In this document: piece after piece, positions 7,876 through 29,212 of the stretch | Numbering within the stretch: position 1 is the first letter of the stretch | Layout: every line of letters starts with the position of its first letter | Source: a virus | Virus record (IMG/VR): IMGVR_UViG_3300030090_001388 | Location: 1-31,310 of that record | Length of the DNA: 31,310 nt | Strand: one strand, 5' to 3' | Position numbers and translations under genes: made by a program | Notes under the pieces: model-generated | Told to the model about the DNA's origin: nothing | Seen by the model: only the letters and a program-made list of their open reading frames with translations | The model's database searches: none

Positions 7876-8333
7876 TCGTCTGTACTACAGATGCCAAATG
7901 ATCCGACAGGTATGCGGATCTCCGTAATTCCTCCGTCAAGGTCAGTCACTAAAAGAACAATCTCTGTGCCCGTATTAACGAAACTAATTTGATTTCCCTG
8001 AAGATCAAATACTCCACCGGAACCACCACTCTCGCTATTGAAAAGAGAGTTAGCTAAATCCTGTGAAAGTTGAGCAAAGATGCGGCTTTCAAGGTTTCTG
8101 ACGAACTTAGCTAAAGTAGTATTTTCCTCTGCTCGAAGTATATCTTCTGCCTTGGATTCAAGTTCATCCAGTATTTCAGCTTTACGGGTTCTTTCCTGCT
8201 CATCAATCGTTAAATAATGCGCAGACTGACCAAACCCACTAAAAGAAGGGTTACTGAAGGTGAAAACCAGATCGGTTGCTTTGGCTGGAACTGCAAACAG
8301 GCTAATCGTTATTAACATCAACCACTTTTTCAT
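7863..8333 (-). CDS. csgF: CsgF-like curli secretion and assembly accessory protein
   Basis: The 156-residue protein has a signal peptide (MKKWLMLITISLFAVPAKA) and the CsgF N-terminal signature TDLVFTFSNPSFSG. In E. coli this segment plugs the CsgG channel, and the rest of CsgF forms a cap at the cell surface that couples secretion to nucleation. The middle contains a charged helix (about 44-75) and the C-terminal half strands such as GTEIVLLVTDLDGGITEIRI. It is slightly longer than E. coli CsgF (138) and ends with a cysteine pair (C149, C154). The AGGGAG ribosome site lies inside the preceding holin-like gene, and the two coding regions overlap by 32 nt, so the curli module is fitted closely to the phage lysis genes. 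No csgE is found next to it. Confidence 0.88.
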   Translation of the reverse strand: MKKWLMLITISLFAVPAKATDLVFTFSNPSFSGFGQSAHYLTIDEQERTRKAEILDELESKAEDILRAEENTTLAKFVRNLESRIFAQLSQDLANSLFNSESGGSGGVFDLQGNQISFVNTGTEIVLLVTDLDGGITEIRIPVGSFGICSTDECAL

Positions 8334-10041: not shown

Positions 10042-10482
10042 CTACTCAATATATCTACCAGTTCTTATCATTTCAGTCAGCGTTTTAGCCCTGTTCCCAA
10101 CCTGAGAGGACCATCTTGAATCAAGAAACTCATCAGCAGCCGCTCTCCAATTTTTACTAGCCATTGCCGCAAGAGCATTTTTAAAAGCTCTTAAACGTGT
10201 TTGACCAAGATTAAAGCTGATATCAATCATTGCATCTTGCCTAACCGAATCAAGGTCGGAAAACCATGAATACTCTGAGTCAAGCTCAACATAAACCCTA
10301 TCTATATCATTTTGCAGAAGATAATCTATCTCATCTTCGGATAGACCAATGCCGCCTTCAGGATCTATATTTCTTCCCACGCCAACAGTGATCTTGGATG
10401 CACTGCATTTATAAGCATGGGATTCGACTCCCTCATGTATCTTGAGCATTTTTATTAATTTGCTTGAAGTTTTATCGTTCAT
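10042..10482 (-). CDS. GH24 (T4-type) endolysin
   Basis: The 146-residue protein is a T4-lysozyme family muramidase that cleaves peptidoglycan at lysis. The catalytic triad follows the E-x8-C/D-x5-T pattern: E17 (HEG), C26 (AYKC) and T32 (ITVGVGRN), so the middle residue is Cys rather than Asp, a known variant in the family. Later motifs DAMIDISFNLG and FKNALAAMASKNWRAAADEF fit the C-terminal lobe. No signal peptide or anchor is present, so it needs a holin. Its start overlaps the giant gene's stop by 4 nt (ATGA). A GGGA-type ribosome site lies upstream. Confidence 0.93.
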   Translation of the reverse strand: MNDKTSSKLIKMLKIHEGVESHAYKCSASKITVGVGRNIDPEGGIGLSEDEIDYLLQNDIDRVYVELDSEYSWFSDLDSVRQDAMIDISFNLGQTRLRAFKNALAAMASKNWRAAADEFLDSRWSSQVGNRAKTLTEMIRTGRYIE

Positions 10483-13400
10483 TTTTGTCTTTCCCTTTGT
10501 TCATCTGAAAGCAAAGCTCTATAAAGGTTAGGGCTAGGAGTAACACTTTGAATAAGCTCTTCAAGAACTTGCATTTGTAACTCTATTTCCTTATCAAAAG
10601 ACAGCAGTCTTCTTCTTCTTTCTTCACGAGACATGCTTCTATCTTGAAGCATTCTATTTCTTGCTGTAGTTGTTTTCTGTAGTTCTTGTTGAGCATAATA
10701 AACAACGTTAGAAGCAGTTTGTGGATCTATACTGTAAAGGTTTAATCCTGCAAATTTTAATGCTGCCTGAGTAACCGTGTTTCCCTCTCCTCCTCTGGAG
10801 GATCTTTGACCAGAAGAAGCATCAATTAATCGCTTGGTTGCTCCATAGTCTGTATGAAGAAATCCGGGCAACATATATTGATTAGCTAAATAAAGTATTG
10901 TGTCTGTTACCTGACCACGGCCCTGAAATAGCTCTTCTTTTGCCCCTCCAATCCATAAAGGCTCACCTTCTTTTCTAATTGGTTGCAAAGTAAATGGATC
11001 TATATTCGTTAAGGGGCCATGCAAAGCCCATAACGGACCTCCAAAAAGACCAATAGTGCTTATAATATCCTTCCCATTTATCCCTTCCTTTTGTGGACCC
11101 GGAGCAAGCTGTTTTACCCCTTTGATAGCCTGATAGGAAAGGTCTGTGAAAGCTCCCCACGGAAAAATAAAACCAAGGTCAATTAACTGAACCCTGCCAT
11201 TAGAGTCTCTTATAGGAAGGGGGAACGTTGCGCCGGGATTCTTAGCAAAATCAGGCAAAAGATTCAGCATTGTTTCATATTCTTCATCGTCAATATCAAA
11301 CATATTCTTAAATACTGCCTCAAGTCCCAACATCATTCCCACATAAGGAGCAAACTTAAAGGGCCTGTTTATAGCGGTATCTAATAAAACAGGGGCAACT
11401 TTATAATAAAAAGTTAAAAACGGAATACCTATAGGACTTGTCCTAGTACCTCTTACAAAAGGAGGCACAAGAGAATAATCAAATAAATATTTCTGAGCTT
11501 TTAAGAAAGCCTCATCAGCCGTACTCTGCTGATGCTCCATCATATCCAAGGCAATAGCAGTTTTACCCATAACCTCTATATTTTGATACCACTGACCAGA
11601 CTTCTTCATAATCTTTCTGAAAGTCTTTATGTTCAACCAATTAAGAATTCCAGCGTCTTCAATGGTAACTTCATTAAGCATCTGCTCAATATCTTCAACA
11701 AATCTATATAGCTCTGATTCAGTAAACGAGGCTTCTGCAACCCCCCTATCAAGCATCGCTTTGTAATGCTTAGATTTTTCCATTGCCTCAGCAAATTCTT
11801 GCTCAGACATTTTGTTCTTATTTTTTACCGCGTTTTTATAGGCAATTATTTCTCTGACTGACTTAGCCATATTTGGCAATATCCTGTGCATTGGAACACC
11901 GGATAGATGCATAAGAATCATATTAGAAAAAGTATTACGGGCAACTGTCGGAGGGTTAAGAGGAACCTTGATTCCTTTCCATATAGCTGTTGCCTTTCTT
12001 GCAGCTTTTCCTAGCTTGGTATAGGAGTTGTCTCCCCATCCCGTGTAACTTACACCGGTAATAACATCATCATAAATAGTTGAATGAACAGCCATGCCAG
12101 CAAGTTTTCCATACTTAGGATGATTAGGAACCCGTTTAAACGACTGCCCTCCAGCAAGAATCTCTAAACCGCCGGGATCTATTGCGTCTAACTTTTTAGG
12201 ATCTACATTTTGATTGGAATCAAGAACTGCTCCAAGACCTAACTCTTTGGCATATTGCTGCAAAACAGGAATATAAGCCTCTCGTAACATTTGAGCCGTA
12301 GCAATCATTTCCTGAGCTTTCTTTTGATCTCCATCTTGAAAATACTTTGCGTTATTTTCAAAGTCTTGGGCTGCTCTGTGCATCCAAAAAACAGAATCTT
12401 CCATCTGTTTTCCAGTGTTAGGATCTATCCATTTAACCATCAATTTGTCGTCTTTTAATGCCCAATTTTTTCCTTTTGATATAGAATCAAAAAACTCCAT
12501 CAGGGCTATATCTCTCATGGATCTCTGTATATGCCTTCCAACAACAAATTCTGGAGCGAGTTCAGTTAAATCTCCAAGTAAATTACGAGTTGTAACATCA
12601 TCTACAGGGATTTTTTGTTCTTGCAAATAAGAAAGGGATTTTCCAGATGGATCTGCCAAAATATGTTTAAGATACATTTGGGGCATGTAAGATCGCTTAT
12701 TTGATTCAAACGTATCTGGTCGTAAAAGACCCCTTGAAACGAGTTCTTTTCCTATATCCTCAATAACATTTTTTGCCCTGACAGCAGACTTAGCCACATT
12801 TTTATCTATTGCCTGAAGTACCTCTAACCTAGAAGCCTCTCCATCAGCAGGAGAGGTTGTCATATAAGAAACAAGCGCCTTACGTAAATTTTCTGAGTCT
12901 GCTCTCTTTTTAGGATTTCTTTTATCAAGATAGGGAGCAAGGTCATTTCTTAATCGTAGGGCAAACTCTTCTACTCTATGTATAGTTCCTAAAAACTTTC
13001 CACGTTCCAGAAGATATTTTTCCCTGTCATGCAAGCCTTTAAGAGGTTGTGCTACGCTGCTATCCAGCCAATTGGTTATTTTTGATCTTGTATTATCAAA
13101 TAAACGTTTTCTTTCTCTAGCTCCAGACCTTCCTAAAGCTGCCATAGAATAGGCAACAACATCGGTTCCGCTTTCCCCGCCTTTTCTGTCAGTCATATCA
13201 GAAGTTATTGGAAAATATGTGCTTGAATTATTAGCAGCAGAAACTATTTGCCTACCTCTTGACACCTGTTCAGGAGGAAGGTCTAGGGGATCTATATCTC
13301 CTACCTCATACATTCCAGATTCTTCTGCAATTTGACGTGCTAATATTTCTTCATCTGTAAGGGGTTGCTGCTCTAAAGTCTCTTCAAAAAAAGTTTCAAT

Positions 13401-16400
13401 ATTAGGTAAATCAGCCATTTCATCAGGAGAAACGATCCTTGCTCCTGTTGGCCCCTCTCCAAACCAAACTACCTGCTTATTTTTTTTGTAATCCTTTTTC
13501 TCTCTATTTGAAAAAGTTCTTGTTAAATTTTCTCTAAGCTGATTCGGTATTTGATGATCGTACATCTGGACAAAACCAGAGATTCCTACAGGTATATCTA
13601 TAGAACCATCCGGTTTTCTTGCATTGGAAAGGTTCCTTCTTGATGTCTCACTAAAATACTTATTAAAAAGATTTAAAGTCTCTGTATCCACAGTTTCCTT
13701 AGACATAAGTCTTTTCTCAAGATCCAGAACCTCTTGGGTTGTTTCGTTAATAAACTCAATGATATTGGGGATTTCCAGAGTTTCCTGATCGTTTTCAAAT
13801 TGGGCTTGCTCTTGCTTATAAAGAACAAGATTTGCAACATCTTCTCCTATCCAATTATTAAACTTTCGTTGATCAAATCTTTTTGGTCTGTCTTTTCGTA
13901 TAGGACCTATATCAGTAGGAACAGAATATTGCACTTGATAGCCGTCTTCGGCATTTTGAAGTCGAGTTATAGACAGTCCAGATATATGATCTTTAAAGTT
14001 CTCCCAGTACCTTTCTTTCTGAAAATTAGAATTAGCAACAGTTATTCCATCGTAGCCTCCGTCAACAGCGATTCTGACAGCATGACTAAGACCTAGATTT
14101 ATCCATTCAGATTGTTTTTTAAATGGCAAATTTGGATAGCTACCGTCCTTTCCATAAACCCGATCCTCATGTTTAGCAAGGTTTTTTCTTACTTCATTTT
14201 TTTGTGTTCTGTTTAAACGAGACCATGTGTTTCCACGTCCGTACATAGATTCTGCTGCAATATCTCTTATTTGTGCGCCTGCTCCCTGATGTATATCGGA
14301 TTGAACCTCTTCAACAACTAAAATTTTCTTTCCGTCTTCTGTGAGAATATCGGAAACACGAATATGAACTATAGGATTTTTAATGTTTCCGGTATGCCCT
14401 TCAGCATAATAGTTAGGTATTGTCTTTCCCTTATACAAATCAGAGGGAACATCGACAGGAGAAGAAATAACAATCATTCTAGCGCTTTCAGGGCCTACCT
14501 TATATTGATCCCATGAATCATAAAAATCTTCAGAAACCCTTCTTTTGCCCCATACCGTGTAATCTATAAATGGAGGACTTATATCAAGAAATCCTTCTCC
14601 AGCAACTGGAGCAGGACCCTTCTGAGCTATTGGCAAAACCCTAGACCTTGGATCACCTTGAAATTCTTCTGGATTACGAAGTCCAAAAATTCTGCGTTGT
14701 GCTTGTTTTATTTCATCTTGATAGTTAGTAATATTTCGATCTTCTAATGGAGATGTGCCTGCTCTTGTTGCGAGAGCTTCCCATAAATCAGAGATTTCTT
14801 TTATGTCACCGATACTCCGAGGCATAAGGCCAAAATCACTAAGAATAGCGTTTTCTTTAAAGCCATCTTCAGCAATTTCAGCAAAAACATCTTCTGAATT
14901 AATTCTCTGACCAATTTGTCTTTTTAAGACAAAATCCTGCAAATCCGACAACGCCTCATTTTTTAACTCTTCAAATCTAGGATCATTATCTAGCTCATAA
15001 AAGACACTATCTCCATCGCTTGTACGACCTAGAAATCTTGGATTAGGCTCTCCATCTATAATCTCTCTGTTGTCAAAAAACTCATCAAAAAGCTCCTTGT
15101 TTTCTTTTCTTAGCCCTTCCCATTTTTCATAGATAGGTTTTATATCTTCAGGAAGTTTGTTTGGCTCTCCAGATTTTATCTGCTCTGAGCTAAGAACACT
15201 CATAAGCGTTCTAAAGGGATATATTTTTGAAAAATATCTTCCGTACTGAATGTAGTTTTCTCTCAACTGATCTTCTGCCATTGACAAAGCAATCTGATCC
15301 GTTGATGAAAGCCTAGCGTCTTCGGTATATCCAGCTACATGTATCTCTACTAAGTGAGATTCTTTTTTTAATTCTTCTAAAAGCTGCTTCTTAGTTATTT
15401 TTTCGTCAAAGTTTCTTGAAAGAAAATCAGGAAGCTGAGAGTTGAGCAATTCAGCCATTTTAAAGTCACCCCTAGATACAGCACCTGCAAGAAGTCCTGA
15501 CTTTATTGGGATTCCGTTATTGTCTTTTTTTCCTAAAGTATCAAGCCATTCAGATCCTTTGGCAGAATTTTGTGTCTTTTTATCTTCCAGAAAAGATGTA
15601 AGCTCAGATTTAAGGCGATAGTTATATTGTTTTGCTGCTGCTTTACCCATGTGAATCATAGGCAAAGGGCTGTCATCTGCGGTTCCACTTGGATCAATAC
15701 GGCCTATAGGCTCTTGTGTCCCAATCTCCCCTTTTCTAACCATATCGAGCAAAGACTTTATCTTTGCTTCCTGAGCTGCAAGTTCAGAAGGAGTAAAAAG
15801 CTCCAGCTCGGCAGTCAGGGAGTCTTTATCAGTGCCATTTATAAACCGTCCAATCCGTTTAAACAGATTATAGATGGAATCGAGTATTCTTCTCAGGGGT
15901 CCTTTATCAAGCTCTTTGGTAAGTACGTCAGGTGGCTTGCCGTTTCTTTCCATTGCGCTGTTATAGTACCCGGATGTATATGCCAGCAGCTCCTGAATAT
16001 CTGTTTCTGTTCCCGGCTCAATATCCTTGAACGCAAGACTGTAACCATCTTCGCCAAGTAACTCTTGAACTACGCTTCTTAACTTGGCGCGAGTCTCTGG
16101 TAAGTCAATATAGTTTTGTTGTTCTTCTGTAAAAAATCCTTCTCTTAGAAGATAGTGAGTTGCTTCATGGAAAGCGGCGTTTTGAGGATCAGCATATTCA
16201 TTTTCTGCGGTTGAGACGGCAACTATGTTTCCAATCTGACGGCCCATAACAGGAATACCGTTTTGGTCAAATAAACTATTTGCTATCCTGCCATCAGCGT
16301 TAGGAGCTGCCTTTTTAATAATATTGTTGATACTAGTTGCTATTGCTATGTCTACGTCTGTAGGGTCTCCTAACATAGGCTCAAGTATTGTTCCTTGAGA

Positions 16401-19400
16401 GCCTTCCATAGGCAGCAAACTTCTTCCCGTCCTAGTATACCAATCAGCCCAAACTGCCGGAGAGTATCCCCTCTTTTTAAATTCAGCAGCAATGTTTTCT
16501 ATAGAAGATCTAGGGGTTACTATTTCACCGCTTTCCCTTGGCCCTTTTTCAAGATAATGTCTAAAGGTTTCTGCCACCATCGTATCAATATCAACATCTG
16601 GCCTTTGTCTCCAAGACTCCATGCCCATATCAATAAAATTAGGAGCTATACCTAGTTCTGCTGCTCTTGACCTAAATTCTTTTAACTGATCAACAGTTAT
16701 AGGTGATGTAACCTGTATTGTTTCTGACAAAGGAACATTGATAACCTGAGATTCTGGAGATGCCTCCAGAACAGGGTTAATCAACTCATTCTTTATTTGC
16801 TTCCCTTTAGCTCTTAATTCTTTAACAGTAGGTTTTTTTCCGTTGTTCTGTAAAAAATGCCTTTGAAGGAAGTTTATATATTTTTTGTCTCTTGTCCTTT
16901 GCTCTTTCCCTTCGGGGGTGTTTGCCTTACCTTTGGGAGGGGCTGCAACCTCATGCAGAGCCTTGTCAACTTCAGAAGCAAAAACCAATTCCTGATTAGT
17001 GTCAGGAATAGTTATCCTCTCTTGTCCTAAGTCATCGGGAAGTCTCTGGGCAAGAGGAGAAAAGCCTCTAATACCATTCCTTGCTGTATCAAAAGACTCT
17101 TCAGTAAGATTGTATTGATTCTGTAACCTATCCAGCTCTAATAAAGGATCTGCCATTTCTTCAACGGGAACTGTTTTAACTGTTACGCCAGCGTTATCAG
17201 TAACTCTTAAAGTCTTATCTGCCTTTATAAAATCAACATTAAATAAAGGAGACTTCTTCTGTTTATTTCTTGCTACAGACTCATTGCCAATCTTTTCTAT
17301 TAACTGGGCGCGTTGATCTCCTGTCATACCAATAACAGAGCTTGAAGGGTTTCCTGTAACCTCCTTAATAAGAGGCTTTAAGTCTTTTTTATTAAGACTA
17401 GAATTAGCAAGAGCTTGATCTACATCATAAATACGCTTACCCGCCGCATGATCATTAACAAAATCACCAAAACTTCCAAGTTCAAATCCATCCCAATCTG
17501 CCGGAGGCGTTCCTTCTTCTTTTAACCTCTGATTATCTTGTTCGACTTCTTTATTGTTCTGAGCTGCATATGATCTTGATAAGGTTTCAAACTCCTTGAT
17601 ATCTAGGTTATAGTTTTTAGCAGCATTCTGTTCTTGTTGACTGGGATTTTTTGTTCCTCTTGTTCTACCTCTCCTATAGGCAATATCGCTGTAAATATCA
17701 GGAGCGTTAATCTCTCGTGAAACCCCTTCTTTGCGGTATTTTACAGTTGGAACAAGCGATGTTTGTTGGGACTCTTCTGCTTGCCTTTGTTTAACTAGCT
17801 CATCTGTACGCTCTTTTATTCTATTATCAAATCTATCGCCTGCCTCGTCTCCAAATTCTCGGCGAACAGTTGCTCCCATATCCTCAGCATCGTAACCAAG
17901 TTTGGTATCTTCAGCGCGGCGATCAATCTGGGCTAACTCTTCTGCTGTAAGACCTTCAATTTCTGCTGGTCTAGTGTCTACTCGTTGAGCCACTGATGGT
18001 TGAGTTTCTGCTGTTTCTGCGTCTGTAAGAATTGCGTCAACGCCAGTCTTTAGCTTTCCGTCTAATTCCTCATCATAAACACGTTGGTCTTCAGCCTTAA
18101 CAGGAGCAGTCTCTGAGTTGTTTTCTACTGGTGTTGGCTCGTCAACCCTTCCTTCTTGGTCTGTTCCTTCCCGATAAATTCCCCGCCTGTTATTTTCAAT
18201 AGCAAGAGCAGTGTAATCAGACTCTTGCTGTGAAGTAGGATTATCTGTTAGTCGCCAGTCTTTTTCTTTTTGAACAAGAAGATTATTTACTTCTTGATCG
18301 CTTAAAGTTCCTATCTCAACAGAACCAGAAGGTTGATTGTTTTCATCAACTGTTCCTATCCGATACTTCGGAGTATAGATATTCTCATTCCCAAACAGAG
18401 AAAATCCCTGATCCCCAACTCCATCCTGCGGATCTCTGGGAACCGAAATAGATTCGCCGGTACTGTTTATTCTTACTCTGGCATTGTCTCCTTCTATCCC
18501 TTCAAAAGTTCCTTGCTGTGGGTTTCCATTCTTATCATATAAGGTAAGATTTTCTACTTTCTGTAGCTCTTCTTCAGAAGCAACAGGAGGTAATTTTGTT
18601 CCCTCATAGCCTGCTTGTACTTGCTCTGCTGTTGGTCTAGGACCCCCTCTAAGTCTGCTCCCCTTACCACTTAGCAATAGATCAAAGATTGCACCTGCAC
18701 CAGCACCATAGCCAAAATCTTCTGATAAAGAGCTATCAAACCAGTCCATATCAGGGTTATATCCGCCTATATGTGTAGCATTGATTCTCTGTAAAACTTG
18801 AGCGCCAGCTTCCTGAAGGCCCTCCATTCCTCCGTTTACAAAGGCGCTTGTCATTTTATTGACAATCCAACTTGGACTGTTGCCTTTTGGGAAACCCCTT
18901 AAAACGCTCTCTATAGGCACTAACTCGGTAAGCCCAATAAGGCCACCCGTAGCTATTGATAAATTTCTTTGTCCTTGGGTGTAATCCCCTCCTGCTTCTT
19001 TAAATGCCGCCATCATTTGGCTTGATTCGCCTGCTCCGGCAGAGCCTGCTGCTGACCATTTTAAAGCGCCTAAACCTCTTGCAAAATTTCTTGCTTGTTG
19101 AGCTGCCTTTAGAGCAGCCGGTCCACTTGCAGCAAGTGTTGCCGCTCTTCCAGCCATTCCAGCCTGACCTAATCCGGGTATGGCAAAAAGGAACATACTG
19201 CCTACTGCTTCAGAGAGCTTTCCAACCACCCCTTCTTCGTTGCCTACGAATTCTCTGGCTTCTTGTAGGATCTCAAAAGCCCTGCTTGTATCGGGATCTA
19301 TCCCCTCAATATTACTTCCGGTTACAACATCAGCCATTGCAAGGAGTCCTTCTCCCATACTAATAGCTGTTTGTCCTACTCCTTTGGCAATTCCTCTAGG

Positions 19401-19796
19401 TATAGTAGCTAAAGCTCCTCCCCAAGGATCTTCTTCTTCTTCAATTGGGGTAAAGACAGCAGGAGCCTGACCAGCGCCAGTTGAGGGAGCGCCCTGAAAT
19501 AAGTCATAAGCGTTTTGAATGTCTCGTGGAACTGGCTGTTCAGCCGGTTGCTCCATAAGCTCTTGGGGAGGAGGAGGTGGCTCCTCTAATCCCATTACGT
19601 TTCCAAAAAATCCGCCGGGACGAATTGTTCTTAGCGGGGCAGGCGCTCTAGTGTCTTTTGGCTGAGACGACTCAATTAAAAGTCTTTCAGCTAAAGGAAT
19701 ATCGTATTGATCTAAAGCATCTGTCCAGTTGTCAGGAGCAGGCTTGCCTTGAAGTGCTAAATCAATAAGTTCTTCATAAGTTGGAGGATTTGCCAT
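10479..19796 (-). CDS. Giant polyvalent phage protein (3105 aa) with LPD38-like C-terminus and metallopeptidase-like motif
   Basis: At 3105 residues this is nearly a third of the window. A low-complexity N-terminus leads to a Gly/Ala-rich hydrophobic region (about 125-260). A zinc-peptidase-like motif, AFHEATHYLL, places H1210-E1211-x-x-H1214. Near residue 1830 lies a domain with KILVVEEVQSDIHQGAG, known from many phage polyvalent proteins. The region about 2590-2960 (AIWKGIKVPLNPPTVARNTF, then TSPIGIPFLTFYYKVAP) resembles LPD38. In podoviruses proteins of this kind take the place of large internal virion proteins and are thought to be ejected with the DNA; that role is inferred from size and position between virion and lysis genes. 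Its stop overlaps the endolysin start. Three GTTTAAAC copies are present. The ribosome site is unusual and is listed separately. Confidence 0.88.
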   Translation of the reverse strand: MANPPTYEELIDLALQGKPAPDNWTDALDQYDIPLAERLLIESSQPKDTRAPAPLRTIRPGGFFGNVMGLEEPPPPPQELMEQPAEQPVPRDIQNAYDLFQGAPSTGAGQAPAVFTPIEEEEDPWGGALATIPRGIAKGVGQTAISMGEGLLAMADVVTGSNIEGIDPDTSRAFEILQEAREFVGNEEGVVGKLSEAVGSMFLFAIPGLGQAGMAGRAATLAASGPAALKAAQQARNFARGLGALKWSAAGSAGAGESSQMMAAFKEAGGDYTQGQRNLSIATGGLIGLTELVPIESVLRGFPKGNSPSWIVNKMTSAFVNGGMEGLQEAGAQVLQRINATHIGGYNPDMDWFDSSLSEDFGYGAGAGAIFDLLLSGKGSRLRGGPRPTAEQVQAGYEGTKLPPVASEEELQKVENLTLYDKNGNPQQGTFEGIEGDNARVRINSTGESISVPRDPQDGVGDQGFSLFGNENIYTPKYRIGTVDENNQPSGSVEIGTLSDQEVNNLLVQKEKDWRLTDNPTSQQESDYTALAIENNRRGIYREGTDQEGRVDEPTPVENNSETAPVKAEDQRVYDEELDGKLKTGVDAILTDAETAETQPSVAQRVDTRPAEIEGLTAEELAQIDRRAEDTKLGYDAEDMGATVRREFGDEAGDRFDNRIKERTDELVKQRQAEESQQTSLVPTVKYRKEGVSREINAPDIYSDIAYRRGRTRGTKNPSQQEQNAAKNYNLDIKEFETLSRSYAAQNNKEVEQDNQRLKEEGTPPADWDGFELGSFGDFVNDHAAGKRIYDVDQALANSSLNKKDLKPLIKEVTGNPSSSVIGMTGDQRAQLIEKIGNESVARNKQKKSPLFNVDFIKADKTLRVTDNAGVTVKTVPVEEMADPLLELDRLQNQYNLTEESFDTARNGIRGFSPLAQRLPDDLGQERITIPDTNQELVFASEVDKALHEVAAPPKGKANTPEGKEQRTRDKKYINFLQRHFLQNNGKKPTVKELRAKGKQIKNELINPVLEASPESQVINVPLSETIQVTSPITVDQLKEFRSRAAELGIAPNFIDMGMESWRQRPDVDIDTMVAETFRHYLEKGPRESGEIVTPRSSIENIAAEFKKRGYSPAVWADWYTRTGRSLLPMEGSQGTILEPMLGDPTDVDIAIATSINNIIKKAAPNADGRIANSLFDQNGIPVMGRQIGNIVAVSTAENEYADPQNAAFHEATHYLLREGFFTEEQQNYIDLPETRAKLRSVVQELLGEDGYSLAFKDIEPGTETDIQELLAYTSGYYNSAMERNGKPPDVLTKELDKGPLRRILDSIYNLFKRIGRFINGTDKDSLTAELELFTPSELAAQEAKIKSLLDMVRKGEIGTQEPIGRIDPSGTADDSPLPMIHMGKAAAKQYNYRLKSELTSFLEDKKTQNSAKGSEWLDTLGKKDNNGIPIKSGLLAGAVSRGDFKMAELLNSQLPDFLSRNFDEKITKKQLLEELKKESHLVEIHVAGYTEDARLSSTDQIALSMAEDQLRENYIQYGRYFSKIYPFRTLMSVLSSEQIKSGEPNKLPEDIKPIYEKWEGLRKENKELFDEFFDNREIIDGEPNPRFLGRTSDGDSVFYELDNDPRFEELKNEALSDLQDFVLKRQIGQRINSEDVFAEIAEDGFKENAILSDFGLMPRSIGDIKEISDLWEALATRAGTSPLEDRNITNYQDEIKQAQRRIFGLRNPEEFQGDPRSRVLPIAQKGPAPVAGEGFLDISPPFIDYTVWGKRRVSEDFYDSWDQYKVGPESARMIVISSPVDVPSDLYKGKTIPNYYAEGHTGNIKNPIVHIRVSDILTEDGKKILVVEEVQSDIHQGAGAQIRDIAAESMYGRGNTWSRLNRTQKNEVRKNLAKHEDRVYGKDGSYPNLPFKKQSEWINLGLSHAVRIAVDGGYDGITVANSNFQKERYWENFKDHISGLSITRLQNAEDGYQVQYSVPTDIGPIRKDRPKRFDQRKFNNWIGEDVANLVLYKQEQAQFENDQETLEIPNIIEFINETTQEVLDLEKRLMSKETVDTETLNLFNKYFSETSRRNLSNARKPDGSIDIPVGISGFVQMYDHQIPNQLRENLTRTFSNREKKDYKKNKQVVWFGEGPTGARIVSPDEMADLPNIETFFEETLEQQPLTDEEILARQIAEESGMYEVGDIDPLDLPPEQVSRGRQIVSAANNSSTYFPITSDMTDRKGGESGTDVVAYSMAALGRSGARERKRLFDNTRSKITNWLDSSVAQPLKGLHDREKYLLERGKFLGTIHRVEEFALRLRNDLAPYLDKRNPKKRADSENLRKALVSYMTTSPADGEASRLEVLQAIDKNVAKSAVRAKNVIEDIGKELVSRGLLRPDTFESNKRSYMPQMYLKHILADPSGKSLSYLQEQKIPVDDVTTRNLLGDLTELAPEFVVGRHIQRSMRDIALMEFFDSISKGKNWALKDDKLMVKWIDPNTGKQMEDSVFWMHRAAQDFENNAKYFQDGDQKKAQEMIATAQMLREAYIPVLQQYAKELGLGAVLDSNQNVDPKKLDAIDPGGLEILAGGQSFKRVPNHPKYGKLAGMAVHSTIYDDVITGVSYTGWGDNSYTKLGKAARKATAIWKGIKVPLNPPTVARNTFSNMILMHLSGVPMHRILPNMAKSVREIIAYKNAVKNKNKMSEQEFAEAMEKSKHYKAMLDRGVAEASFTESELYRFVEDIEQMLNEVTIEDAGILNWLNIKTFRKIMKKSGQWYQNIEVMGKTAIALDMMEHQQSTADEAFLKAQKYLFDYSLVPPFVRGTRTSPIGIPFLTFYYKVAPVLLDTAINRPFKFAPYVGMMLGLEAVFKNMFDIDDEEYETMLNLLPDFAKNPGATFPLPIRDSNGRVQLIDLGFIFPWGAFTDLSYQAIKGVKQLAPGPQKEGINGKDIISTIGLFGGPLWALHGPLTNIDPFTLQPIRKEGEPLWIGGAKEELFQGRGQVTDTILYLANQYMLPGFLHTDYGATKRLIDASSGQRSSRGGEGNTVTQAALKFAGLNLYSIDPQTASNVVYYAQQELQKTTTARNRMLQDRSMSREERRRRLLSFDKEIELQMQVLEELIQSVTPSPNLYRALLSDEQRERQK

Positions 19797-19830
19797 TTTT
19801 TGTACTACGTAAAGACGCAGTAAACTCCCT
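19797..19830 (-). promoter_or_regulatory. Split ribosome-binding site with hairpin before the giant gene
   Basis: Reading the minus strand: AGGGAG (19830-19825), TT, the inverted repeat TACTGCGT-CTTT-ACGTAGTA (19822-19803), CAAAAA, then ATG at 19796. The stem has 8 pairs, one of them G-U, with a 4-nt loop. Unfolded, AGGGAG is 28 nt from the ATG, too far to work; folded, the effective spacing is 8 nt. The same AGGGAG with 7-8 nt spacing precedes the genes starting at 23874 and 8333. RNA hairpins that bring a distant Shine-Dalgarno close to the start are known for T4 genes 25 and 38. Confidence 0.6.
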
Positions 19831-19835
19831 ATTTT

Positions 19836-21992
19836 TTATAAAGTAGAACCGATATCTAACCAATTCCAATTATCTTGCTGCCTCATACCTTCCAGATTAG
19901 ATATAAAAGCAGCTTGATTTATCTGACCGCTATCATCTCTTGATCTTTGCATCACCGCTTCCAATGATGGCCTTAATTGAGTCATTAAAGCGCGGTCGCC
20001 GTATCTTGTAATACCAGAGTCTTCAACTCGTTCCTCCCATTGATTCCATGCATCTGCCAATGGATCAGCCGAAGTTCCTGCTTCAACAGCAGCCTTATAA
20101 AGCTCATTGACCTCTTCTAAATTCCTATCAATTCCAATGTTTGCTGCAACCTGAGCAGGCTCAACACCATATTGCGCATAAAGCAAAGCATTAGCTCTTT
20201 GGTGCTGCGGCATATCTACAAGAACTCCTGTTTGTACATCCCTAGAAAGAGTTCCAACTGTATCGTTGTAATTTTTTGTTTCACCCGCTACCCAATCTCG
20301 AAGAGCTTGTTCGTGATCTCTGGCATCCCTAGCACTTTCTTTAGCATCAGTATAAACCTGAAAGTTATAATCACGAGCCTCTTGAGCCAAATCATTAGCC
20401 TCTTTAAGAGCAGCTAGGAAGTTAGTTCTAGTAGTTGCTGCGGTAGTTGCCCTTCTGCTCTGTTCGGTAAGAAGACCCTGCCTTCTTGTAAAGGAAGCGT
20501 TAGCTCTGGTTGCCTTGCGATTAAAAGCATCCACCGCATGTTGATAGATTTCTTTTTGTTCCTGACCAGTCATCTTATTCATAACTCCGCTGGCATCTCC
20601 AAATGCACCTGCCATTGCTGTTATAAAGTCAGGGCTTCCTTTTTCTGCCGCATTAAAAAATGCCTGAGCCAGCCCCAAGTTGGTCTGTGTTTTAATTCTA
20701 TTCTTAATGGAATCTCGATCAGGAATTCCCTCTTCAAGCTCGTCAAGATCAAGCATATATTGATCTATTTCTTCTCCTAGCTCTTTTATTCTATTGGATT
20801 CTTCTGCTTCAAAATTAGAAAGCTCTGTTCGTGTTGATGTTTCTGTTGCATCTAATCCCAAAGGATTTGGAATAGAAGAAATCAATTGACTTAATACCTG
20901 CTGTTGTTGTTTATGAGCAAGAGTAGCACCAGCGACCAAAGGATCTACTTTTGGAACACTTGCACCATACTGAGGACCTCCGATTACTTGGTTTGGAGGA
21001 GTTACACCATCACCAGCACCAGTAACAGGAGGAGTAGTAGTAGCACTAGCACCACCATCAACAGTATTGACAAGATTTCCAGAGCCTATATTAGCCATAT
21101 CTGGACCACCTATAGGTTGAGAAAATTCAGTCGGCTCAACGCCTGCTGGAAAGAATCTGGTAGTCAACTCGTCAAGTTTTCCACCCCTAGTTGGCAAACC
21201 TAGAGCTTGCGCTCCTCCAAAATAAGGGTCTGTTTCAAGCCCTGTCCTTGCCTGTTCTTGGTGATATTCATCTAATGATTTTTGAGGAATAATAGGCTGA
21301 TCATACATTTCTGGTGGAACATATCCGTAGTTTCTCCCCATCTCTTCTCTTTTCAAGAGATTTTCTCTTTGCTCAACTACCAAAGGATTATAAACAGACG
21401 CTATAGATTCAGGTGTTTCTTGAAGTCTTTGTGCATATTCTCCACTGGCTCTTTGAATCTGTGAAGGATCAGCTCCAGCAGCTATTAACTCTTGAGGAGT
21501 CATTCCCTGAAACGTCTGAGCAAGAGCTTCTTGAAAATATGGGTTGTAAGCAAACTGACCACCATTATCAAACTTGCGTATCAATCCTCCCACACGAGCA
21601 GCCGGAACCTGTTGTCGGAGCATTTCAGGAGCAAGCTCAGGCATAGTGTTTTCAGGCATTCTTGATAATGGAGGGTTACGCATCCCTGTTTGAGGGACAT
21701 TAGCCTGCATCATCATCGGGTCTTGAGGGATATCCATTGGATTTCCTGTAATACCCATAGGATTATTAGGAACGCCTATCGCTCTTTGAATCAAATTATC
21801 CAAAACAGTCGTATTTTCTTGAGGTTGGGCAGCAGCTTCAGCTCTGGTAACTTCTCTATCTTTCATTTCAGTTGCTGCAATCAAAGACTCAATTCCTTCC
21901 TGTTGAGTTAGCTGCGCAAGACTCTCATCTGGAAGGCTAGAAACTCTGCTAGCAAGGCCAACTAAATCTTCTACATTTGACGGTGATGCCAT
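19836..21992 (-). CDS. Probable internal virion protein with helical C-terminal half
   Basis: The 718-residue protein has an N-terminal Pro/Asn/Met/Gln-rich half and a C-terminal half (from about 370) rich in charged helices, such as NFEAEESNRIKELGEEIDQY and the Arg/Ala-rich segment near 500-560. Residues 134-147 carry GGLIRKFDNGGQF, a version of the F-x-x-GG motif that recurs in neighbouring virion proteins. It lies directly before the giant gene, the position where T7-like phages encode internal core proteins, so a core or ejection role is likely. No enzymatic motif is seen. A strong AGGAGG ribosome site precedes the ATG. Confidence 0.65.
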   Translation of the reverse strand: MASPSNVEDLVGLASRVSSLPDESLAQLTQQEGIESLIAATEMKDREVTRAEAAAQPQENTTVLDNLIQRAIGVPNNPMGITGNPMDIPQDPMMMQANVPQTGMRNPPLSRMPENTMPELAPEMLRQQVPAARVGGLIRKFDNGGQFAYNPYFQEALAQTFQGMTPQELIAAGADPSQIQRASGEYAQRLQETPESIASVYNPLVVEQRENLLKREEMGRNYGYVPPEMYDQPIIPQKSLDEYHQEQARTGLETDPYFGGAQALGLPTRGGKLDELTTRFFPAGVEPTEFSQPIGGPDMANIGSGNLVNTVDGGASATTTPPVTGAGDGVTPPNQVIGGPQYGASVPKVDPLVAGATLAHKQQQQVLSQLISSIPNPLGLDATETSTRTELSNFEAEESNRIKELGEEIDQYMLDLDELEEGIPDRDSIKNRIKTQTNLGLAQAFFNAAEKGSPDFITAMAGAFGDASGVMNKMTGQEQKEIYQHAVDAFNRKATRANASFTRRQGLLTEQSRRATTAATTRTNFLAALKEANDLAQEARDYNFQVYTDAKESARDARDHEQALRDWVAGETKNYNDTVGTLSRDVQTGVLVDMPQHQRANALLYAQYGVEPAQVAANIGIDRNLEEVNELYKAAVEAGTSADPLADAWNQWEERVEDSGITRYGDRALMTQLRPSLEAVMQRSRDDSGQINQAAFISNLEGMRQQDNWNWLDIGSTL

Positions 21993-23370: not shown

Positions 23371-23874
23371 TTATCCTTCTGCGACTTTTAAGTTGCTAAC
23401 AATCTGTAAATCCGGCTTTTGGATTTCAGATTCTTTATCCTTAAAGTCTTCAAAATCTTTCGTCATAATTACGTATTTTTCAGTCCATTTTTCTTTTTTG
23501 AGCCTTCTTGCCCATCCGCGCCTTCCAGACATCTCCATCCCATCACATCCTGAAACCTTGCCCCAACTGGCAATCATAATTTCTGTTTCGTTAAACCACT
23601 CATCCAACCTTTCTCCTGCCAGATATTGTACAGAAATCATAAATTTGCGTGGGTATTGCATCATTTCTGTAATAACCACGCCAATAATTGGATCTCCTTC
23701 TAAATCTTCATCCCAAACGATCCACATATGCTGTTGACCGGACAGCAGCATATGAAGAAGGTCTGATAATTCAAATCTTCCATCACTACTAGGCTCTAGC
23801 TTCTTCAAGATATCCTCACATCTTTCCCAAACAGAACCAATTAGATGAGGAGGAACCATAGAAGATGTTGTCAT
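23371..23874 (-). CDS. GNAT-like phage protein
   Basis: The 167-residue protein has strands MWIVWDEDLEGDPIIGVVIT (50-69) and a C-terminal motif, GCDGMEMSGRRGWARRL (109-125), that resembles the end of GNAT-type acetyltransferase folds found in marine phage structural clusters. The R/Q-x-x-G-x-G loop for acetyl-CoA is not clear, so enzymatic activity is uncertain. It sits between two virion proteins. The AGGGAG ribosome site with 8-nt spacing lies over the end of the upstream gene. Confidence 0.6.
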   Translation of the reverse strand: MTTSSMVPPHLIGSVWERCEDILKKLEPSSDGRFELSDLLHMLLSGQQHMWIVWDEDLEGDPIIGVVITEMMQYPRKFMISVQYLAGERLDEWFNETEIMIASWGKVSGCDGMEMSGRRGWARRLKKEKWTEKYVIMTKDFEDFKDKESEIQKPDLQIVSNLKVAEG

Positions 23875-27033: not shown

Positions 27034-27203
27034 TACGAAATAAACCAATCCATAGCTTCTATGGGGTTATTCGTTTCCCTAGACGTATTTATGTTTGCAA
27101 AGTTTAAACGCAATTGATTGATAAGCCTTAACATATATTCATGATTATAATCCCTAGAAGGCATTTCCAGAGGAATCCTAAAACTGGCGGATTCATTGCT
27201 CAT
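27033..27203 (-). CDS. Short 56-residue tail-region protein
   Basis: This short gene fills what would otherwise be a gap. It begins MSNESASFRIPLEMPSRDYN, continues HEYMLRLINQLRLNFANINT and ends EAMDWFIS. Its ATG overlaps the tail hub gene's stop (ATGA) and its TAA overlaps the next ATG (TAATG), strong support that it is translated. Small proteins with 'R-D-Y...L..LE..F..i' helices next to the tail hub are common in marine podoviruses. Function unknown. One GTTTAAAC copy lies in it (27102-27109). Confidence 0.7.
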   Translation of the reverse strand: MSNESASFRIPLEMPSRDYNHEYMLRLINQLRLNFANINTSRETNNPIEAMDWFIS

Positions 27204-29032: not shown

Positions 29033-29202
29033 TATTTATTTTTACCCTTAGATTTTATTTTTACATTCTTAGTGGTATAGGCTTCATCTACATCTTTTGT
29101 ATTAGGATCATCCTTTATATACCGACCCTTTCTGTCTCTGGCTCTTACTGTTATAGACTCAATTTGTAAAAAGAATCGTTTAAACCAGTTTAAAAAACTC
29201 AT
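29032..29202 (-). CDS. Short 56-residue basic protein before the tail hub
   Basis: The product begins MSFLNWFKRFFLQIESITVR and continues ARDRKGRYIKDDPNTKDVDE, ending in a Lys-rich tail. A TAGGAG ribosome site lies 7 nt upstream of the ATG, and the TAA overlaps the tail hub ATG (TAATG). The segment 'A-R-D-x-K-G-R-Y/F-x-x-D-D-P-x-T' followed by 'EAY' is one I associate with small proteins of marine phages. Function unknown. One GTTTAAAC copy (29178-29185) is present. Confidence 0.75.
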   Translation of the reverse strand: MSFLNWFKRFFLQIESITVRARDRKGRYIKDDPNTKDVDEAYTTKNVKIKSKGKNK

Positions 29203-29212
29203 TTTTTTGCTC

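Follow-up and report, generated by a model that had tools for sequence, protein, structure and literature searches.

The question raised by this locus is how ribosomes find the start of a gene for a protein of 3105 residues when the Shine-Dalgarno (SD)-like sequence in front of it lies far upstream. The window, by which we mean the entire 31,310-base IMG/VR virus record that was analyzed, carries close-packed genes on the minus strand, including a 718-aa gene followed by the 3105-aa gene (Table 1). On this strand, the 39-nt gap between the two reads AAAAT, AGGGAG, TT, TACTGCGT-CTTT-ACGTAGTA, CAAAAA and then ATG. The stop codon of the 718-aa gene is located 5 nt upstream of the SD and 13 nt upstream of the stem, and the distance from AGGGAG to ATG is 28 nt in the unfolded RNA and 8 nt with the hairpin folded. 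The original prediction had listed the same elements and both spacings, which proved exact on re-reading; its layout of the hairpin stands as well, but it omitted that the structure lies on the minus strand and that one of the eight pairs is a G-U pair. As developed below, we assign a probability of roughly 0.55 to the reading that this leader is a lineage-specific accommodated (split) ribosome-binding site of the type described for bacteriophage T4 gene 25.

Table 1. Features at the junction between the 718-aa and the 3105-aa genes, with positions in the window (predicted energies; SD pairing scored with an assumed CCUCC core)
Feature	Position	Strand	Remark
718-aa gene	19836..21992	-	homologues immediately precede the giant gene in L166-L168
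Stop codon TAA of 718-aa gene	19838-19836	-	
Gap from 718-aa stop to 3105-aa ATG, 39 nt	19797..19835	-	
AGGGAG, SD-like	19825..19830	-	best 7-mer pairing -7.0 kcal/mol, third strongest of 29 starts scored
Hairpin: stem TACTGCGT / loop CTTT / ACGTAGTA, 8 pairs, one G-U	19803..19822	-	-7.6 kcal/mol, 37 °C
CAAAAA, hairpin to start codon	19797..19802	-	no SD; best near pairing +0.4 kcal/mol
ATG of giant gene	19794..19796	-	N-terminus aligns with starts of L166, L167 and L168
3105-aa gene	10479..19796	-	probably large virion/ejection-type protein, inferred by position
UCCU in codons 3-4 (Met = 1)	19785..19788	-	predicted pairing with AGGG of the SD, whole-leader fold

Any interpretation of the leader depends on the start codon. 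According to coding statistics, the in-frame score over codons 1-67 is 0.46 bits per codon, with the two other frames below -0.7, and the giant proteins of three loci, L166 to L168, align from Met-1 (MATQEE... versus MANPPTYEE...). These loci were found with the C-terminal portion of the 718-aa product, and homologues of the 167-, 454-, 718- and 3105-aa proteins occur there in the order of the window. Since the coding signal sets in at codon 1 and the N-termini in the three loci are homologous, we accept ATG 19796 as what, by all indications, is the true start of the gene. A start at Met-68 had been considered because in distant relatives the shared domain is preceded by about 34-48 residues; it was ruled out, as the coding signal is at full strength over codons 1-67 and the proteins of L166-L168 begin at the position of Met-1. 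With regard to the function of the giant protein, a Pfam search gave no match, and its only recognizable stretch is formed by residues 1791-1930 (14007-14426, minus strand), with a weak match to phrog_7348, labelled endolysin. The product of a 610-aa gene of the window (29032-27200) is similar to proteins labelled 'stabilization' or virion structural in phages, with the best record in phage DSL-LC04 (39.6% identity) and further matches at 31-35% in the Pelagibacter phages HTVC027P and HTVC023P. In phage DSL-LC04, the last gene of the corresponding block is annotated as DNA transfer protein; as the 3105-aa gene has the matching position, its product is probably a large virion or ejection protein.

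SD sequences were scored against an anti-SD core that we take to be CCUCC; with this core, which may not be that of the host, AGGGAGU at 27 nt reaches the value given in Table 1, whereas the region 2-12 nt upstream of the ATG offers no pairing. Thus, the leader combines a distant SD (28 nt, beyond about 18 nt) and the lack of a normally spaced one with a stable hairpin between SD and AUG that is predicted to reduce the spacing to 8 nt, within the range of 5-11 nt looked for in an accommodated site. The minus strand of the window holds 11 copies of AGGGAG, two of which stand at normal spacing, 7 nt in front of the gene starting at 8333 and 8 nt from the ATG of the gene starting at 23874, the latter in agreement with the match in folded spacing that had been claimed for this gene.

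The predicted stability of the hairpin is considerable. Folded in isolation, it has an energy of -7.6 kcal/mol at 37 °C and of -12.2 kcal/mol at 10 °C, and stem pairs 2-7 form with a probability of at least 0.97 in all contexts and at all temperatures tried (10-37 °C). The stem is predicted to be unfolded in a fraction of 4e-11 of the molecules at 4 °C, rising to 4e-6 at 37 °C and to 2.5e-4 at 50 °C. The original prediction had suggested temperature control of the giant gene, which is at odds with a stem predicted to stay folded from 4 to 50 °C, with an unfolded fraction below 3e-4 even at the upper end. An RNA thermometer is hence not supported, as no melting is predicted in the physiological range and the SD resides outside the hairpin. 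The fold of the leader as a whole is unexceptional (z -1.27, with 16 of 200 shuffles as good).

Folded leaders of a similar kind are known from phage T4. As summarized in a review (PMC3014915), folding reduces the spacing from 27 to 11 nt at gene 25 and from 22 to 5 nt at gene 38, the mechanism has been demonstrated with mutations, reporters and DMS probing, and only close T-even phages share the arrangement found at gene 25. Both T4 leaders (L169 and L170) were run through the same script as the window leader and were recovered with similar values. For gene 25, the script gave an SD of -5.6 to -5.8 at 24-26 nt, 5-7 stem pairs closing a 4-nt loop, a folded spacing of 8-10 and a spacer energy down to -7.0; for gene 38, an SD down to -7.7 at 18-22 nt, a stem of 5-6 pairs, a folded spacing of 6-7 and a spacer energy down to -8.6. 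The window leader, with an SD of -7.0 at 27-28 nt, 8 pairs, a folded spacing of 7-8 and a spacer energy of -8.3 kcal/mol with the hairpin, matches the two in geometry and predicted stability, as had been proposed. In particular, it shares with gene 25 the distant SD closely followed by a hairpin with a 4-nt loop (7 pairs there, 8 here), a folded spacing of about 8, a similar spacer energy (-7.0 and -8.3, respectively), the position at a two-gene junction and, apparently, the restriction to a lineage. The two differ in the position and size of the gene and in the sequences of SD and stem, and, as far as the review's account goes, gene 25 is an experimentally demonstrated case kept in close T-even phages, whereas the window site is known from its sequence. 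Similarly, the hairpin of gene 38 brings a distant SD to about 5-7 nt, but its stem is shorter and GC-rich with a UUCG loop, and its SD abuts the stem. In Escherichia coli thrS, a hairpin lies between the ribosome-binding site and an upstream single-stranded region and not between SD and AUG. While this layout differs from the SD-hairpin-AUG order of the window, a hairpin is described there that the ribosome accommodates in its folded state (PMC3936740), as is proposed here for the window leader. A literature search retrieved no mention of the leader of this giant gene, by which we do not claim that it is unpublished. The giant gene opens with the same nine bases as T4 gene 25, the best-known case of this leader type: ATGGCAAAT (19788-19796, minus strand), likely a coincidence.

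Several estimates were made of how often such an arrangement would arise by chance. When the 28-nt spacer was shuffled with dinucleotides preserved, stems of 8 pairs that leave a spacing of 4-10 after folding appeared in 374 of 20,000 shuffles and a hairpin of equal stability in 85 of 20,000. The full arrangement, in which a strong SD is distant, a near one is lacking and a stem with at least 8 pairs restores the spacing, was found at 5 of 34,469 distinct ATGs of the related loci, counted in any frame and on either strand, and at 1 of 980 ATGs within the window. The former rate corresponds to about 0.004 expected cases over the 29 window starts scored, before allowing for other patterns that might have been picked. 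A looser class, with at least 6 pairs, is not enriched at starts (2 of 1037 crude gene starts versus 7 of 4239 internal ATGs), and one of the two starts is the giant-gene leader of the window itself; crude starts were taken from the longest ORFs, and some contigs among the loci overlap, duplicates having been removed by leader sequence only. By themselves, 8-pair stems are common, with 29 on the minus strand compared to 17.3 +/- 4.7 in shuffles; nearly all of these 29 stems (perfect or with one G-U, at least 8 pairs) are situated within genes. The split arrangement is rare and no general device of this phage group, and it is unlikely, but not impossible, that the instance in the window arose by chance.

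Geometry, stability and the low chance rate lead us to favor a T4-gene-25-type site, and we infer from the same elements that ribosomes use SD, hairpin and AUG together. The 30S subunit would bind AGGGAG just past the codon that ends the 718-aa gene, and the stable 20-nt hairpin would be looped out rather than melted, which would place the AUG at 8 nt from the SD, a spacing near that seen elsewhere in this phage between AGGGAG and a start codon. Folding would also cut the path from the stop codon to the AUG from 39 to 19 nt and could thereby aid the restart of ribosomes that have finished the 718-aa gene. The hairpin would act as a constitutive spacer-shortener rather than a temperature switch.

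The relatives compared comprise homologues of the giant gene in 80 viral loci (the best 80 of 116 domain matches) and one genome contig; the first neighbor search had covered the best 80 of 598 confirmed matches. Starts were assigned by a script as the most upstream ATG or, otherwise, GTG or TTG. Excluding L158, in which no start was found, 80 of the 81 loci together with L166-L168 gave 83 starts and 70 distinct 45-nt leaders; L152 is without a measured gap to the upstream stop, L118 has a gap of 51 nt, and L109, for which a gap of 266 had been obtained, was merged with L108, whose leader is identical. Seven loci that were read separately are relatives of the same kind, and most recur in this set because their contigs are represented there by differently cut segments. 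The proteins of the relatives are only about 30-40% identical to those of the window. Neither the split arrangement nor an 8-pair stem is present in any of the 70 distinct leaders from the best 80 of 116 matches and the additional loci, including L166-L168, and aligning the junction with those of relatives revealed no counterpart of the hairpin. No close relative of the junction was found in viral_contigs, genome_contigs or the phage collection, searches with the 718-aa protein in full and with the giant protein, either entire or as residues 1-400, returned no close protein relatives, and an exact degenerate SD-hairpin-ATG pattern had 0 matches in viral_contigs. The leaders of the distant relatives differ from that of the window and lack the hairpin. 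The arrangement appears to be young or local, and its absence at 30-40% identity would not mean that it is non-functional; this distant absence is no refutation because the T4 gene 25 arrangement, according to the review, is likewise missing from distant T4 relatives (PMC3014915).

The same leaders bear on the main alternative, a possible but clearly less probable one, in which initiation at ATG 19796 is SD-independent or coupled to termination, either by ribosomes ending the 718-aa gene or by S1-assisted binding to the A-rich CAAAAA leader, while AGGGAG and the hairpin are incidental or leftovers of a rearrangement at the junction. Among the distinct leaders from the best 80 of 116 matches and the additional loci, the giant gene begins -4 to 17 nt from the preceding stop in 68 of the 69 measured, 29 of the 69 overlap the stop by one base, and a near SD better than -3.5 kcal/mol is absent from 44 of the 70. 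The closest syntenic relatives, L166-L168, behave likewise, their gaps measuring 3, 17 and 17 nt at near-SD energies of +0.6, -0.5 and -0.5, and several other starts of the window also have no near SD. SD-poor, coupled starts thus seem to be normal for this gene family, and as the family commonly does without an SD, a coupled start is supported for the window gene, too. However, its 39-nt gap exceeds those of 68 of the 69 measured relatives (from the best 80 of 116 matches and the others), so that simple coupling should be weaker here. Furthermore, a coupled start leaves as coincidence that a strong SD used elsewhere in the phage has its spacing corrected exactly by the hairpin, at a low chance rate.

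Another alternative is suggested by the longer folds, in all of which the hairpin persists and the AGGG of the SD additionally pairs with UCCU of codons 3-4. This pairing, which encloses the hairpin, is part of the minimum-energy folds of 101 and 161 nt, where the GGG of the SD is mostly paired (0.79-1.0). It might mask the SD until a ribosome terminating at the 718-aa gene, or a protein, opens the fold, tying the amount of giant protein to that of its neighbor. We consider such regulation unlikely: shorter fragments fold otherwise, the pairing is not conserved, and little weight is given to masking because the mean accessibility of the SD, 0.23, resembles that of other window genes (the two further genes preceded by AGGGAG have values of 0.19 and 0.24). 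A two-state junction that joins masking to the split site is similarly improbable. Here, codons 3-4 would mask the SD unless the 718-aa gene is translated; a ribosome terminating at 19836 would cover the SD region and stop short of the stem, the folded stem would present the AUG at 8 nt, and giant protein would be made in proportion to its neighbor, by a split site that arose independently of that of T4.

The predicted stable hairpin between two cistrons might also serve RNA processing or stability, e.g. as an RNase III cleavage site or a barrier to decay. This is very improbable, as the stem has only 8 pairs, which is short for RNase III, occurs as a single copy with no repeats within the window and matched no known RNA family in an Rfam search. 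That the hairpin, sitting in an intergenic gap, is an intrinsic terminator or a promoter element can practically be dismissed, since on the coding strand the stem is followed by CAAAAA and not by a T run, and none of the terminator- or promoter-like sites in the window lies at the hairpin. The two longest gaps between minus-strand genes are located elsewhere, at 27049-27199 (151 nt) and 29033-29212 (180 nt).

If the T4-gene-25-type site works as proposed, the solution known from T4 genes 25 and 38 would also have arisen in a tailed phage that is unrelated to T4, in front of the gene encoding its largest protein, and it would caution against calling such genes SD-less by linear spacing alone. 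As a single, unconserved instance, its general weight is modest.

Two further observations concern the relatives. In all of L166-L168, the palindrome GTTTAAAC directly precedes ATGG at two genes, those for the 167-aa and the 718-aa homologues (e.g. gggcGTTTAAACATGG; positions 510-517 and 2739-2746 in L166, and at the same genes in L167 and L168), and is not seen before the corresponding window genes. In addition, a contig filed under the Chloroflexi MAG TMED70 (L164, 5001-5765) encodes a homologue of the N-terminal domain of the giant protein; it is probably a phage contig that was binned with this MAG.
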